From contig CAMEDD010000025.1 of NCBI GenBank assembly GCA_945913285.1, positions 1 through 37,427 on the forward strand: DNA of 37,427 nt, in the 5' to 3' direction. Below the pieces are notes generated by a model. That model saw only the letters and a program-made list of their open reading frames with translations, made no database searches and was not told where the DNA came from. Origin of the DNA: Candidatus Sulfopaludibacter sp. SbA3 (GTDB lineage Bacteria > Pseudomonadota > Alphaproteobacteria > Caulobacterales > Hyphomonadaceae). How positions within the stretch are numbered: the stretch's first letter is position 1; each line of letters begins with the position of its first letter. Of the stretch, positions 18,715 to 24,897 are shown piece by piece. Both the position numbers and the translations under genes were made by a program.

Positions 18715-19422
18715 TCAGAAATTGTGATCTGATCGCGCAAATGCGCCAACCAGAGCATCTGCGGCCGCCTTGGCCACGGGGCCGAACTCTGCGCGCGCAG
18801 ATTGTGTGAAAGCCGCCTCGCTCTCGAGGATCACCCCGTCGCGTAAAACCTTCAGCCCGTTTGCCTTCAGCGTGGCGCCGGTCGTCGTGATATCCACGAT
18901 CACATCCGCAGTCCCGGTAGAGGGGGCCGCCTCGGTCGCGCCCGCACTTTCAACCAGCCGGTACTCACCGACCGACTTCTGGGCAAAGAACCGGCGTGTC
19001 AGGCGCAAGTATTTTGTGGCCACCCGGAGCCTCCGGCCGTGCGCTTTGCGAAAAGCGGCGCCGGCCGCTTCAAGGTCTGCCATCGAATCAACGTCAAACC
19101 AGGCCTGCGGCACAGCCACGACCACGTCCGCCCCGCCAAAGCCGAGCCGTTTCACGACGCGGAAATCGTCCGCGCCGTCCGGGGCGAGGTCATTCAGCAG
19201 GTCCTCCCCCGTCACGCCGAAATGCAGGCTGCCCTCGATCAGGCCCTGCGCAATCTCGCGCGCGGACAGCAGGCGCACTTCCGCGTCGAGCCCTTCGATC
19301 TCGGCCGTATAGCCTCGCTCCCCGCCGATCTGGCGCAGCGGGTGGCCAAGGCTCACAAGCCAGTCCTCAGTCTGCTCCTTGAGGCGCCCCTTGGAGGGGA
19401 TCGCAATCGTCAGCCGGCTCAT
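18715..19422 (-). CDS. hisG: ATP phosphoribosyltransferase, short form HisG
   Basis: First enzyme of histidine synthesis, joining ATP and PRPP. At 235 residues it is the short form, which lacks the C-terminal regulatory domain and needs HisZ for activity and feedback control. The N-terminus LTIAIPSKGRLKEQT and the PRPP/phosphate-binding end DVIVDITTTGATLKANGL are characteristic. VTGEDLL and RLRVATKYLRLTRRFF also match. The start overlaps the hisZ stop (ATGA at 19419-19422). The stop codon is followed by an A8 run and then the operon terminator about 90 nt later. The operon is probably controlled from the His-rich leader upstream of hisS. Confidence 0.96.
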   Translation of the reverse strand: MSRLTIAIPSKGRLKEQTEDWLVSLGHPLRQIGGERGYTAEIEGLDAEVRLLSAREIAQGLIEGSLHFGVTGEDLLNDLAPDGADDFRVVKRLGFGGADVVVAVPQAWFDVDSMADLEAAGAAFRKAHGRRLRVATKYLRLTRRFFAQKSVGEYRLVESAGATEAAPSTGTADVIVDITTTGATLKANGLKVLRDGVILESEAAFTQSARAEFGPVAKAAADALVGAFARSDHNF

Positions 19423-20537
19423 GCCCCCGCCCTCCGCACCCGGATCATCCGGTCAGGCCGCACCACGCCGCCGATACCCGTCGCCGCAACCCGTCCCGAG
19501 GAGAGACCGGAGATCAATCCGTCATACCGCCCGCCCGCCGCCACCGGCTGCGAAGGCGAGAGCCCCTCTGCCAGCACCTCGAAGACGAAGCCATCATAAT
19601 AGGTGAACCGCCGACCGAACCCGGCTCGGAACTCCGCCGTCCGCCGCGCGCCTGGCACGAGCGCCATGATCTTCCCAACGCGCGCCGCAAAGGCATCAAG
19701 CGCCGCGTCCGCACCGGTCAACCCACGCGCCTTCGCGAGAGCGTTCAGCGTCTCCGGTGCCTGCGTGAGCGGACAATCCACATCGCGCAGCGCAAGTAAG
19801 GCCGCGCGTGCACCGTCCGGCAGGCCGCCCGCTTCAATTGCCGCGCGCCGCGCCCGCAGGCCCTCAACGATTTCCGCGAGGCTGCGCGCGCCCACCAGCG
19901 GCATATCGCGCGCCGCCAGAATATCGCCCAGCGCCGCTTCCGGTTCGGCCGCGTCCAGAGCCTTCAGAACATCCGCATCCAGTGGACGCGCCGCCTCGTC
20001 CAAAACCGCCCGCACGCCGCCTTCCTGCCGGAACGCGCGCTTGAGCAAGTCCGTCGTCACCACAGGCAGGCAGAGCGCATCGATGAAGGCTGGAAAGATC
20101 GCGAGATCGCCGGTCACGATGGCTTTCGGCTGCACGCCGCAGGCCTCCACTGCGCGGTGGACCAGCGCGAAAAGCTCTGCGTCGGCGCCCGGGTCGGCGC
20201 CATAGCCAAAGCGCTCAAGGCCGACTTGCGTGAATTCGAACGGATCATCCGCCGCTGCCGGCAGCCGGAACGCCCTCGCGGCGTAGGTATAAGTCTTCGG
20301 CAACGCGCCGCCCTCCAGCCGCGCCGCCTCGCGCTGCGCCACCGGCAAGGTCAGATCAGGCCGCATCGCCATCTCGGCGCCGCGATTGTCCGTGAACACG
20401 CAAAGCCGCGCCCGGACCGCTTCGCCCGACAGCTCCAGCGGAATGTCCGCTGGCAGAACATAATCTGGATCAATCGGTGAGCCGCCCGCTGCTTCGAACA
20501 CCGCGCGGGCAACCGCCACCAGGGCGTCATGGTTCAT
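19419..20537 (-). CDS. hisZ: ATP phosphoribosyltransferase regulatory subunit HisZ
   Basis: HisRS-like paralogue without aminoacylation activity that forms the hetero-octamer with short HisG and carries its histidine response. The 372-residue protein has class II synthetase-like segments: MRPDLTLPVAQREAARL (motif 2 region), AFRLPAAADDPFEFTQVGLERFG and the C-terminal GGRYDGLISGLSSGRVAATGIGG (motif 3 region). It lacks the anticodon-binding domain and the full HisRS histidine loops. It overlaps hisS upstream and hisG downstream by ATGA junctions, indicating one coupled translation unit. The order hisS-hisZ-hisG puts the synthetase, its paralogue and the regulated enzyme in one mRNA. Confidence 0.94.
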   Translation of the reverse strand: MNHDALVAVARAVFEAAGGSPIDPDYVLPADIPLELSGEAVRARLCVFTDNRGAEMAMRPDLTLPVAQREAARLEGGALPKTYTYAARAFRLPAAADDPFEFTQVGLERFGYGADPGADAELFALVHRAVEACGVQPKAIVTGDLAIFPAFIDALCLPVVTTDLLKRAFRQEGGVRAVLDEAARPLDADVLKALDAAEPEAALGDILAARDMPLVGARSLAEIVEGLRARRAAIEAGGLPDGARAALLALRDVDCPLTQAPETLNALAKARGLTGADAALDAFAARVGKIMALVPGARRTAEFRAGFGRRFTYYDGFVFEVLAEGLSPSQPVAAGGRYDGLISGLSSGRVAATGIGGVVRPDRMIRVRRAGA

Positions 20538-22015
20538 CGCTGCGCCTCGACGATCGCGCGCACCGCTTCGACCATCTGCGCGCGTGGCACTTCGATCTGC
20601 CCCGGCCGGGCCTCGCGGTATTCCTCGTTAGACGAGATGGCCTGCGCCTTCAGCGCGCCCATCTCGAGATCCTTGATCGTCACCGTGCCCTTGGAAATCT
20701 CATCGCCGCCCACGATCACCACCGCAGGCGAAGCCCGCCGGTCGGCATACTTCATCTGTGGCCGCATGCCGGAGGCGCCCATGTAGGCCTCGGCGCGGAT
20801 GCCTGACCGTCGCAGCTCAGCCGCAATCCCCAGAGCGAGGCCCGGATTGTCCTTATCCAGATTAAGTACGACCACAGGGCCATCCAGCTTTGCGCCTTCG
20901 CCCATGATGGCGAGCGCCGCCGCCAGCCGCGAGATGCCGATGGAGAAGCCCGTCGCGGGCACCGTCTCGCCGGTAAAGCGGGCCACGAGATCGTCATACC
21001 GCCCGCCGCCGCCGATGGAGCCGATGCGGTAAGTCTTGCCGTCTTCGCCGGTCACTTCGCGCAACAATTCTGCCTCGAACACGGGGCCGGTATAGTATTC
21101 GAGTCCTCTGACTACGGAGGGATCGATCTTCACATCGTCCTCCGGCGCGCCGAGCGCTTCAAGCGCCAGCGCAATGGCTTCGAGTTCTGCAAGACCCGCC
21201 TTGCCTTCCTCGGTAAAGCCCGCCGCCCTGGCGAGGTTTGCCAGCGTCACCGCGCGCGTTTCAGCGCCCGCTTCGGCGAAGGCCAGCACGCGTTTCACTT
21301 CATCCGCGCCGAGGCCCGCGCCTTTGGTAAAGTCGCCGCTGTCATCCTTGCGGCCCGCACCCAGGAGGTCTGCGACACCAGAGGCGCCCAGCCGGTCGAG
21401 CTTGTCCAGCGCGCGCAGGATCGCGAGGCGCGTGCCGGCGCTTTCGGCCCCGACAGAATCCAGCACGCCGTTGAGCAGACGCCGCGTGTTGACGCGGATC
21501 ACGAACTCGCCCGGCTTCATGCCGATTGCGCGCAGCGCTTCAGCGCCCATTGCGATCATCTCGGCATCGGCGTGATAGCCGGGCGCGCCGACTGTGTCGG
21601 CGTCGCATTGCCAGAATTCCCGGAACCGTCCGGGCCCGGGCTTTTCGTTGCGCCAGACAGGTCCCGCCGCATAGCGCCGGAAGGGCCGGCCGAGCGACTG
21701 CCCCGCCTCCGCCACGAAACGCGCGAGCGGCGCCGTCAGGTCATAGCGCAGCGCCATCCACTGCTCGTCATCATCCTGCACCGCGAAGACGCCGGCGTTC
21801 GGCCGGTCATCATCGGGCAGGAACTTGCCCAGCGCGTCGGCATATTCGAACGCGCCGGACTCGAACGCTTCGAAGCCCCACTGGCGATAAACGCCGGTGA
21901 CGGTCTCCACGAGCCGCGCCTGCGCATGGATCAGCGCCTCCCGCTTGTCGGGAAAGCCGCGAGGCTTGCGGGCTAGGTCCTTGGCAGATGGGGGCGGATT
22001 TGCCTTGTCGCTCAT
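20534..22015 (-). CDS. hisS: Histidyl-tRNA synthetase HisS (eukaryote-like type)
   Basis: Charges tRNA-His. At 493 residues it is longer than the common bacterial form (about 420-450). Motif 2 reads PVWRNEKPGPGRFREFWQCD, closer to the REFYQCD form of eukaryotic and archaeal HisRS than to the GRYRQFHQ form of E. coli. The histidine loop RGLEYYTGPVFE and the motif 3 region GGGGRYDDLVARFTG are present, followed by an anticodon-binding domain. This fits the transferred HisRS known from a large alphaproteobacterial clade with unusual tRNA-His identity. The ATG at 22015 has GGA six nt upstream. The upstream frame to 22147 runs through leader RNA structure and is not coding. Confidence 0.95.
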   Translation of the reverse strand: MSDKANPPPSAKDLARKPRGFPDKREALIHAQARLVETVTGVYRQWGFEAFESGAFEYADALGKFLPDDDRPNAGVFAVQDDDEQWMALRYDLTAPLARFVAEAGQSLGRPFRRYAAGPVWRNEKPGPGRFREFWQCDADTVGAPGYHADAEMIAMGAEALRAIGMKPGEFVIRVNTRRLLNGVLDSVGAESAGTRLAILRALDKLDRLGASGVADLLGAGRKDDSGDFTKGAGLGADEVKRVLAFAEAGAETRAVTLANLARAAGFTEEGKAGLAELEAIALALEALGAPEDDVKIDPSVVRGLEYYTGPVFEAELLREVTGEDGKTYRIGSIGGGGRYDDLVARFTGETVPATGFSIGISRLAAALAIMGEGAKLDGPVVVLNLDKDNPGLALGIAAELRRSGIRAEAYMGASGMRPQMKYADRRASPAVVIVGGDEISKGTVTIKDLEMGALKAQAISSNEEYREARPGQIEVPRAQMVEAVRAIVEAQR

Positions 22016-22230
22016 GGTCGTTCCAGGTCCTGTGTCAGGCTGGGCCCGCTTAAACGGCGCGGGCCGGAATGGGAAGGCGGCGCGTCGAACCGGCCCGGGA
22101 ACCCGGTTTCGGCCTGCGTCTCTGGTTCGGTTCTGGAGGGTGAACACTATCAGAGACGCAGCCGGACCGGTTCGCGCCTCGCCGGCGCGTCATGCGTGAT
22201 GATGGTGGTGCCGGGGGGCCGTGTTCATTG
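22016..22230 (-). promoter_or_regulatory. his leader RNA with alternative stems (putative attenuator)
   Basis: After the leader ORF come segments that can pair in more than one way. A:B is GCGCC (22188-22184) with GGCGC (22178-22174). B:C is a 13-bp stem, 22174-22162 with 22098-22086, perfect but for one G-U, enclosing a perfect 11-bp stem CTGCGTCTCTG/CAGAGACGCAG (22161-22151 with 22124-22114). C:D is GGGCCGG (22096-22090) with CCGGCCC (22067-22061). D:E is GGCCCGC (22065-22059) with GCGGGCC (22049-22043). B cannot pair with A and C at once, nor C with B and D. No U run follows C:D or D:E, so the end step may not be a classic intrinsic terminator. Confidence 0.65.
22190..22228 (-). CDS. hisL: his operon leader peptide, MNTAPRHHHHHA
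   Basis: A 12-codon ORF with five consecutive histidine codons (CAC CAC CAT CAT CAC, 22210-22196), ending TGA at 22192-22190. It lies in the transcribed leader of hisS-hisZ-hisG, between a good promoter and a run of alternative stems. The density of His codons and their place before the structured leader are the marks of an attenuation leader peptide, as for the his leader of enterobacteria. Only 8 nt separate the -10 box from its ATG, so the transcript probably starts at or within 1-2 nt of the ATG and the ORF is leaderless, with no Shine-Dalgarno site. Histidyl-tRNA shortage would stall the ribosome just before stem A. Confidence 0.85.
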   Translation of the reverse strand: MNTAPRHHHHHA

Positions 22231-22421
22231 CCGGGCCGGATACTGACGCGGCCCGGTAAAGTCAACCGCAGCACGGGTTAAACCGGCTTTAGAGCCAGCT
22301 TGCTTGCAGGCCGCCGCAAATCGGCTAGTCATGCGGGCACCGGGCTTCGTGGGCGCCCGGAAAAGGCGTTCGCGCCCAAGCCCCACTCGATGGCCCGTGG
22401 CCGACGTGTGGAGACTTCCAG
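22229..22421. other. Rest of the hisS-chrA intergenic region
   Basis: The whole non-hisS gap is 406 bp (22016-22421). The hisS side holds the his promoter, leader peptide and leader RNA. On the chrA side I see only the chrA ribosome-binding site (GGAG at 22410-22413) and a half-matching TTAA-N7-TTAG (22278-22292) of the kind bound by CtrA. No convincing plus-strand promoter was recognised. Confidence 0.6.
22237..22265 (-). promoter_or_regulatory. Promoter of the hisL-hisS-hisZ-hisG operon
   Basis: On the minus strand TTGACT (22265-22260), a 17-bp spacer and TATCCG (22242-22237). The predicted start is near 22230-22228, at the leader ORF. An inverted repeat CCGGGCCG-N10-CGGCCCGG (22231-22256) spans the spacer and -10 and could be an operator or chance GC symmetry. 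Confidence 0.75.
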
Positions 22422-23744: not shown

Positions 23745-23853
23745 CAACGCACCATTCGGAACCGGGCCCCTCTGGTGACTGCGGCGGCTGTCACGATGTC
23801 GGATCTACCTCGGACTCGCGCGGACGCGGCGCACCTATCCGGACCAAAATCAC

Positions 23854-24897
23854 ATGCCTGAATTCATGACCCTCGCTTATGCGGGCCAACCTGTCTGGTT
23901 GTGGCTCGCTTTCCTCAGCTTCATTGCCTTCCTCCTCTGGGTGGACCTCGGCCTTCTCAACAACAAGGATGAAGTGGTCTCTCCCGCCAAGAGCGCGATG
24001 ATGTGGGCGGCCTTCTCGTCGCTCGCGGTGGCCTTCGGCTTTTACGTCTATTTCGGCTACCAGCCGGACCCGCAATTCTACAACGAGCCGGACAACCTGA
24101 ACCAGCAGGCGACCATCCAGTTCGCCACGGGATACTTGCTTGAGACCGCCCTCGCCTTCGACAACATCTTTGTCATCGGCATGATCTTCACCTTCTTTGC
24201 CATCCCGCCGAAGTACCAGCACCGGGTGCTGTTCTGGGGCATCATCGGTGCCATCGTGTTTCGCGCGATCTTCATCTCGCTCGGCTCGGCGGTAGTGAAC
24301 GAGTTCACCTGGGTCCTCTACATCTTCGCCGCCTTCCTAGTGTTTACGGGCGTCAAGATGCTCATTGGTGGCAGTGACCATGAGATGGATCTCAACGAGA
24401 ACCCTGTTCTCAAGTTCCTGAAGAAACGCATCCGCGTTACCGAAGAGATCACCAACCACAATTTCGTGGTTCGGAAACCGCATCCGGTGACTGGCAAGAT
24501 GGTGTTGTTCGCAACGCCCCTGCTGCTCGCCCTGGTCATGGTAGAGCTTGTCGATATCGTGTTTGCAGTCGACTCGGTGCCGGCGATCTTCGCGGTCACC
24601 CGCGATCCGTTCATCGTTTACACGTCGAACATCTTCGCCATCCTCGGCCTGCGTTCGATGTACTTCATGCTCGCGGCCGCGATCGAGCGATTCAAGTACC
24701 TGAAGTATGGCCTGGCGCTTGTGCTCGTGCTGATCGGCCTCAAGATCATCTGGAACTTCCTGCTCTACAAGGAACTGCACATCGTGCCGTATCTTGAGCC
24801 GCAGGTGTCGCTGATCCTGACGATCACCTTCCTCGGCGGATCGATCATCTATTCGCTCTGGCGGACAGGATCGGAAAAGAAGGTCGCCGGGGCCTGA
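23854..24897 (+). CDS. TerC family integral membrane protein
   Basis: A 347-residue inner-membrane protein of the TerC/Alx type, with about nine hydrophobic segments. The family's conserved acidic membrane motifs are present: WVDLGLLNNKDEV near residue 30, GYLLETALAFDNIFVIGMIF, and LVMVELVDIVFAVDSVPAIFAVTRDPF with FIVYTSNIFAILGLRSMYF. These acidic residues fit the metal-ion (Mn2+) export role shown for relatives; tellurium resistance itself is not implied. The length fits the long Alx-like form. The last 49 bp overlap the 3' end of the convergent thioesterase frame. Confidence 0.93.
   Translation: MPEFMTLAYAGQPVWLWLAFLSFIAFLLWVDLGLLNNKDEVVSPAKSAMMWAAFSSLAVAFGFYVYFGYQPDPQFYNEPDNLNQQATIQFATGYLLETALAFDNIFVIGMIFTFFAIPPKYQHRVLFWGIIGAIVFRAIFISLGSAVVNEFTWVLYIFAAFLVFTGVKMLIGGSDHEMDLNENPVLKFLKKRIRVTEEITNHNFVVRKPHPVTGKMVLFATPLLLALVMVELVDIVFAVDSVPAIFAVTRDPFIVYTSNIFAILGLRSMYFMLAAAIERFKYLKYGLALVLVLIGLKIIWNFLLYKELHIVPYLEPQVSLILTITFLGGSIIYSLWRTGSEKKVAGA

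Follow-up and report, generated by a model that had tools for sequence, protein, structure and literature searches.

The window (the whole stretch of DNA analysed, 37,427 bases) carries on its minus strand the genes hisS, hisZ and hisG, preceded by a short open reading frame (ORF) with a run of histidine codons, a putative promoter and several potential RNA helices (Table 1). The order hisS-hisZ-hisG downstream of the leader, proposed earlier from the sequence alone, was borne out by NCBIfam matches, those of HisZ lying below the curated cut-offs. The leader ATG is located 213 nt before the hisS start (22015). Among relatives, hisS is followed by hisZ and hisG in 82 of the 85 leader-bearing loci, and in the remaining three the retrieved sequence stops too early. 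A divergent gene encoding a chromate efflux transporter (TIGR00937; 22422-23720, plus strand) starts 157 nt from the -35 box of the leader, and an Rfam terC RNA (RF03067, 55.4 bits; 23754-23811, plus strand) precedes a gene encoding a TerC/Alx family membrane protein (23854-24897).

Table 1. Genes, promoter elements and RNA strands of the hisS leader region in the window
Feature	Position	Strand	Basis
-35 hexamer TTGACT	22260..22265	-	direct reading; TTGACN in 64/64 leader-bearing relatives
-10 hexamer TATCCG	22237..22242	-	17-nt spacer; 8 nt to leader ATG
leader ORF MNTAPRHHHHHA + stop, probably leaderless (geometry)	22190..22228	-	ATG 22228-22226, TGA 22192-22190
strand 0, GAACAC beginning at the G of the start codon, partner of strand 4	22221..22226	-	helix 0:4
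strand 1, CGCGCC, immediately past the stop codon	22184..22189	-	helix 1:2
strand 2, GAGGCGCG, partner of strand 1, 3 or distant 6	22173..22180	-	helix scan, pairing counts
strand 3, UGCGUCUC in the window (UGCGCCUC general form), partner of strand 2 or 5	22153..22160	-	helix 2:3
strand 4, GUGUUC, complementary to the start codon region	22142..22147	-	helix 0:4
strand 5, CAGAGACGCAG, 11-bp partner of CUGCGUCUCUG (22161-22151)	22114..22124	-	window fold
strand 6, CGCGCC, pairs at long range with strand 2	22079..22084	-	helix scan and window fold
last hairpin before hisS, GGCCCGC-loop-GCGGGCC, no U-tract behind	22043..22065	-	fold
hisS, histidine-tRNA ligase	20537..22015	-	NCBIfam TIGR00442, 358.7 bits, cut-off 286.75
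hisZ, ATP phosphoribosyltransferase regulatory subunit	19419..20537	-	NCBIfam HisZ-family matches, all below curated cut-offs
hisG, ATP phosphoribosyltransferase	18715..19422	-	NCBIfam TIGR00070, 168.2 bits, cut-off 75.75

The sequence-only reading had described a 12-codon poly-histidine ORF about 8 nt past a TTGACT-17-TATCCG promoter. Direct reading confirmed this arrangement and places it on the minus strand, which had been left unstated. When both strands of the window were searched for ATG-started ORFs of 6-45 codons with at least four consecutive His codons, the leader ORF was the sole one found, and when the 300 nt before hisS were shuffled 3,000 times with dinucleotide composition kept, no shuffle yielded such an ORF with five consecutive His codons. 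The poly-His leader ORF before hisS is more than chance. The -10 hexamer shares only three of its six bases with TATAAT and does not end in the T that the sigma-70 scan requires, and a generic sigma-70 scan of the window made no call for this promoter; the promoter is therefore claimed because it is conserved in relatives, and not because of its fit to the consensus.

HisS was present in 98 of the 105 genomes of the family Hyphomonadaceae, and the upstream regions of all 98 loci (L002-L099) were examined. A leader ORF, defined as 6-20 codons with at least three His codons including HH, was found in 64 of them; a stricter earlier rule, asking for three consecutive His codons, gave 60. Promoters were fitted with spacers of 16-18 nt and distances of 4-15 nt from the -10 box to the ATG, scoring likeness to TTGACT and to TATCCG/TATAAT, and TTGACN with a 17-nt spacer was the best fit in all 64 leader-bearing loci. 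The end of the -10 box lies 6, 7, 8, 9 and 10 nt from the ATG in 3, 12, 38, 4 and 7 leaders, respectively, and an SD-like motif upstream of the leader ATG was found in none of the 64. Across the 58 leaders of twelve codons, CAT and CAC both occur at all six positions of the run and non-His residues are rare; position 9, for instance, is His in every one, encoded by CAT in 38 and by CAC in 20. Because the codon varies between CAT and CAC while the residue mostly stays His, we take the pattern to reflect selection for the amino acid, placed at a near-fixed distance from the promoter. The same near-fixed geometry between promoter and ATG makes leaderless translation of the ORF, from the 5' end of the transcript as the sequence-only reading had proposed, very likely.

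A covariance model built from the Hyphomonadaceae leader (R1) matched 65 of the 105 family genomes, with one match each, in three genera. All 65 matches are on the hisS strand and start 200-292 nt before the hisS match. One locus (L065), whose peptide MSYGPHPHCA has two His codons only, was detected by R1 alone. Across the order, R1 matched 62 of 398 sampled genomes belonging to 3 of 59 genera, all Hyphomonadaceae, under stricter filters by which weak relatives may be missed. In a survey of the class, HisS was matched in 108 of 385 genomes and 51 upstream regions were taken, mostly of the long HisS type; six were dropped as they could not be placed by tblastn, and none of the 45 placed regions of these more distant alphaproteobacterial hisS genes showed three consecutive His codons in a short ORF.

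The leader is not universal in the family. Conservation of the His run, on which the sequence-only reading had made its claim depend, stands for the 64 of 98 hisS loci but not for the two nearest relatives of the window (L003 and L004, 97% identity in HisS), both of which are leader-free. Five Hyphomonas genomes (L003, L004, L007, L010 and L032) show hisS-hisZ-hisG without the leader, and an R1 search of these genomes, three of which are drafts 84-96% complete in 220-520 contigs, found no leader elsewhere. Four of the five (L003, L004, L007 and L010) have a common alternative upstream region, CTTGCCG-CTAGGTGCGGGGCGAA, and their hisS starts as ATGACCGATGC. Since these four genomes do not fall into a single clade by HisS yet have this region in common, recombination may move the upstream allele. 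The operon being kept without the leader in five Hyphomonas, the leader would be dispensable in part of the genus, or would have been swapped by recombination. In Ponticaulis and several further genera of Hyphomonadaceae, neither the ORF rule nor R1 detected a leader.

Directly after the stop codon of the leader ORF come mutually exclusive RNA stems, in which most of the invariant alignment columns are found. The alternative stems that had been reported after the ORF are thus present, and two helices have compensatory changes. Helices 1:2 and 2:3 are mutually exclusive, strand 2 being common to both, and helix 0:4 joins the start codon region (AUGAACAC) to the downstream GUGUUCAU. Helix 1:2 is paired in 99.7% of cells and shows hardly any variation. 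Helix 2:3 is paired in 97.4% of cells, its end pair being G-C in 42 sequences, G-U in eight, A-U in two and C-G in one. Helix 0:4 is paired in 90.6% of cells over 57 sequences, a count that kept the MAFFT columns although, by eye, four leaders (L069, L070, L071 and L072) are misaligned there, which lowers the score; its clearest exchange, from C-G (40) to A-U (11), accompanies a change of the peptide from MNT to MKT. Taken together, helices 0:4 and 2:3 are paired in 94.0% of cells in the 57 distinct leaders; both sides have changed in 15 cells, and the covariation score is 0.114. None of 500 shuffles, which ignore the kinship of the sequences, reached any of these values. When the partners were slid against each other, pairing fell to 33-60%. 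The other two of the five measures were within the range of the shuffles, namely the number of pairs with both-side change (reached by 129 of 500 shuffles) and that of pair types (reached by 19 of 500).

In 48 relatives helix 3:5 is paired in 95.0% of cells in the register GCCUC/GAGGC; it was no better than shuffles there, with no covariation and no both-side change. The window forms 3:5 as a helix of 11 bp in a register differing from that of its relatives. For the full leader of the window (22228-22010) the predicted folding energy is -96.4 kcal/mol, whereas shuffled versions average -79.05 (z -4.06). Applied to the full leaders of all 64 loci, RNAalifold returned only 1:2 and a 4-bp hairpin before hisS. 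Judged from these alignments, the existence of the helices is supported by conservation, and that of 0:4 and 2:3 also by compensatory change.

We propose, with a probability of roughly 0.8, that a leaderless, ribosome-mediated histidine attenuator governs hisS-hisZ-hisG and, with it, tRNA charging and pathway entry. From the geometry, the transcript would begin at the leader ATG or a few bases from it, and the ribosome would start at the 5' end. With charged tRNA-His plentiful, the ribosome would reach the stop codon and cover strand 1, leaving strand 2 to pair with strand 3; after its departure, the freed 5' end would pair with strand 4, closing the start codon in helix 0:4. With charged tRNA-His scarce, the ribosome would wait on the His codons and cover the 5' end, which would block 0:4; strand 1 would be free, 1:2 would form, and strand 3 would join strand 5 once this is transcribed. 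Two states are thereby predicted, 2:3 with 0:4 when histidine is plentiful and 1:2 with 3:5 when it is short, the latter being the one that, by analogy, should permit expression of hisS-hisZ-hisG.

We infer the ribosome-dependent choice of helix from the size of the ribosome footprint and from constrained folding. On its downstream side, a ribosome extends about 12 nt beyond the codon it is reading (PMC4833913); strand 1 would therefore be free while the first His codon occupies the A site and covered once the ribosome is at the stop codon. Constrained folding was carried out on 58 of the 64 leaders (34 of Hyphomonas, 14 of Henriciella with MN and 10 with MK), leaving out L066, L069, L070, L071, L072 and L098. 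In RNAs of 125 nt with the ribosome stalled on the first His codon, 1:2 was predicted at 0.98, 0.90 and 0.70, and pairing of strand 3 with downstream sequence at 0.76, 0.76 and 0.61, in Hyphomonas, Henriciella MN and MK, respectively. With the ribosome at the stop codon, 1:2 was at 0 and 2:3 at 0.19, 0.66 and 0.59 in the same three sets. In RNAs of 95 nt, 0:4 was at 0.96-1.0 except with a ribosome on the His codons, when it was 0; in Hyphomonas it had almost disappeared at 125 nt (0.03 with no ribosome). With a stalled ribosome on RNAs of 82 and 95 nt, 2:3 was at 0.79 and 0.88 and 1:2 at 0.07 and 0.01 in Hyphomonas, so folding at these lengths is opposite to the model and 1:2 wins only from about 125 nt. 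In the leader of the window, strand 3 at 125 nt was paired downstream at 1.0 in all three ribosome states. Equilibrium folding of full-length leaders with ribosome masks did not separate the states, and downstream pairing of strands 2 and 3 dominates there in both Hyphomonas and Henriciella. Folding gives a mixed picture of whether the ribosome selects between the helices.

Two alternatives bear on the sensor itself. The His run is conserved as protein and poly-His binds metals, so the leader could encode a functional small peptide, for example a metal-binding one, and not a codon sensor. We hold this to be very improbable: exclusive RNA stems directly past the stop codon hold most of the invariant columns, hisZ and hisG come after hisS in all 82 informative leader-bearing loci, and the run HHHHHH becomes HHHGHHH or HHLH in relatives. 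The ORF could also have a 5' untranslated region of a few bases and not be truly leaderless, as would fit the range of 6-10 nt between the -10 box and the ATG. Against this stand the ATG at exactly 8 nt in 38 of 64 leaders, the absence of an SD-like motif from all 64, and helix 0:4, which starts at the A of the ATG in 14 Henriciella leaders (AUGAACAC/GUGUUCAU); a short untranslated region is unlikely on these grounds.

The output of the proposed histidine attenuator is the less certain part. As the standard scan recognised no intrinsic terminator in the window, the term attenuator in its strict enterobacterial sense is unproven. A looser scan (loop of at most 16 bases, at least five U in the 8 bases past the stem) gave terminator-like sites in 15 of the 64 leaders. 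In 11 of these the site is at 2:3, and nine of the 11 belong to the ten MKT leaders of the Henriciella branch, in which strand 4 is GUUUUC. In that branch, given this U-run past the stem, 2:3 may act as a weak terminator. That hairpin 2:3 is itself a weak intrinsic terminator, with strand 4 as its U-tract, would agree with 2:3 being the state expected at plentiful histidine and with the 11 sites of the looser scan, which had no shuffle control; this is rather unlikely, since the other 49 leaders, that of the window included, gave no site even by the looser scan, the standard scan was negative in the window, and a 12-nt loop and a gap ahead of the U-run are poor for termination. Outside the MKT branch, transcription may end by Rho-dependent termination, or hisS translation may be what is controlled. 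Both would suit a window in which no terminator was recognised. Rho-dependent termination is a real if minority possibility to which the C- and A-rich stretches seen by eye in the interval from strand 4 to strand 5 and ahead of the last hairpin lend something, although C-rich stretches are common in high-GC DNA. Control of hisS translation, by masking of the ribosome-binding site or by reinitiation, and not of transcription, is nearly as likely as the Rho-dependent route. In its favour, UCUUGUC and GACAGGA around the hisS SD can pair in 14 Henriciella leaders (on average 0.88 of the sequences paired at each pair); however, Hyphomonas showed no matching SD-masking helix but only a 5-bp GGUCC/GGACC, constrained folding barely shifted the accessibility of the SD in this genus (0.35, 0.39 and 0.38), and by reasoning the order of the exclusive helices in Henriciella would invert the sign of control.

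The 14 Henriciella leaders in question (L040-L068 minus the MKT leaders) have UCUUGUC/GACAGGA at consensus positions 145-151 and 208-214, and in the same leaders a stretch overlapping this pairing can join strand 2 over 10 bp. Masking of the hisS SD by strand 6 was considered as a general output and rejected, being found in Henriciella only and with the wrong sign of control.

A second type of leader was found in another family of the order. Among 26 further named hisS loci (L214-L239), mostly of Caulobacter, Phenylobacterium or Caulobacteraceae, 20 show an ORF such as MTRFAHHHGHHHPTLAGSAGGLVA before hisS, and 21 by a looser rule. The loci without it are L223 and L236, which have almost no upstream sequence, L232, which belongs to Ponticaulis, L225 and L237. 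This leader is longer (HHHGHHHPT), with -10-like boxes, by eye, about 8-10 nt before the ATG. It shows two exclusive hairpins with GCGGAYGG common to both: AGCCCCG/UGGGGCU is paired in 91.8% of cells, and GCGGAYGG/CCRUCCGU in 96.9%, where a single pair shows C-G in place of U-A in 8 of 21. For the latter hairpin, two of five measures of compensation were no better than shuffles. A further His leader with exclusive hairpins before hisS was taken to favour the attenuator proposed above. A covariance model of this second type (R2) matched 38 of 398 genomes of the order at E < 1e-10, in one other family and three genera. At E <= 0.01 there were 72 of 398, the weaker of which (about 6e-7 to 0.01) may be chance and were not counted. 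These R2 counts are of genome matches, position at hisS not being part of the criterion.

In seven leaders, ARAGORN found a tRNA-Gln(UUG) between strand 3 and the last hairpin: five belong to Henriciella genomes (L042, L044, L046, L047 and L051) and two to the genus of MAG UBA5336 (L070 and L072). Rfam RF00005 agrees, with 42.6-61.6 bits. A search with the leader tRNA-Gln sequence (E <= 0.01) gave one copy per genome in these seven, at the leader, a partial match of 25 nt in an eighth genome and none in the other 97 of the 105 family genomes. Its anticodon stem shows both-side changes at four of five pairs while UUG is constant; two of 28 cells are unpaired in the D stem, and the T loop of L072 is altered. 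At least four genomes (G012, G017, G018 and G019) probably have an ordinary tRNA-Gln(UUG) elsewhere, as read from sequence patterns and not by ARAGORN. Placed on the HisS tree, the tRNA-Gln label needs three changes. Furthermore, L060 retains acceptor-like arms only (GCCGGGT..CCCCGGC), and L066 and L052 show further tRNA-like remnants by eye.

Gln codons occur in all seven tRNA-Gln leaders, with peptides such as HHHHQQT and QQHHHHQHS, and in two of the 57 others (L066 and L074); the Fisher value of 5.8e-8 for this association is overstated because the sequences are related. We offer as a tentative idea, more probably wrong than right, that the start codon is itself a switch strand (0:4), one ribosome passage setting the state and then shutting the leader, and that the tRNA-Gln branch is a His/Gln double sensor, in which running short of either charged tRNA-Gln or charged tRNA-His would increase tRNA-Gln, HisRS and the entry enzyme of a glutamine-consuming pathway. 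No description of a tRNA within such a leader was found in the open-licence literature.

If the histidine attenuator proposed here is real, one histidine sensor would couple tRNA charging and pathway entry, and amino acid attenuation would operate in the absence of a Shine-Dalgarno site and, in the window at any rate, of a recognisable terminator. Two hisS leader types in two families of one order, together with the losses and the tRNA-Gln version, would form a natural series for how attenuators arise, switch amino acid and vanish. As named Hyphomonas strains (H. polymorpha and H. jannaschiana, for instance) and Caulobacter strains have these leaders, the main claims are testable.

The sequence-only reading knew of no published description of this arrangement. 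The open-licence literature likewise gave no description of a leaderless His leader before hisS-hisZ-hisG; the claim of novelty had nevertheless to be softened because, in bacilli, His leader peptides before hisS* and hisZ have been described (Naville and Gautheret 2010, PMC2965389, in the parts available), and in other Firmicutes His leaders before his operons (PMC9413887, likewise in part). Novelty of the leaderless leader-hisS-hisZ-hisG arrangement is likely, not proven. In Rfam, no family matched positions 21950-22300 up to E 5, T-box included, and the covariance model of the enterobacterial his leader (RF00514) gave no match at its gathering score or at E <= 5.

As far as the available parts of the sources go (PMC2965389, PMC9413887, PMC4833913), the bacilli hisS*/hisZ leaders are alike in having a His-codon run in a short ORF directly upstream and in the proposed sensing of charged tRNA-His. 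They differ in belonging to Firmicutes, in preceding separate genes and in their reported terminator hairpins, whereas here one alphaproteobacterial operon, hisS-hisZ-hisG, has a probably leaderless leader and no terminator recognised in the window; this likeness is drawn on features other than the RNA stems. The enterobacterial his leader (RF00514) also has a poly-His leader peptide, exclusive stems and hisG among the controlled genes, but here hisS is the first gene, there is no SD-like motif, and no terminator was recognised in the window. The rhizobial trpL (rnTrpL; PMC7298713, PMC10117765) is, in the parts of these articles available, an alphaproteobacterial leader ORF at the 5' end of the transcript, as ours probably is, but has Trp codons, trpE(G) and a described transcription terminator. 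Within the same order, 375 leaderless mRNAs are reported for Caulobacter, with leader coding sequences before trpS and ileS, both aminoacyl-tRNA synthetase leaders, and ilvL (PMC4117421, seen in part); the main text of that article does not contain 'histid', the part available names no hisS leader, and its data sets may list one. The His leaders of bacilli, other Firmicutes and enterobacteria are nearest to the present leader in logic, and the leaderless rhizobial trpL nearest in form.
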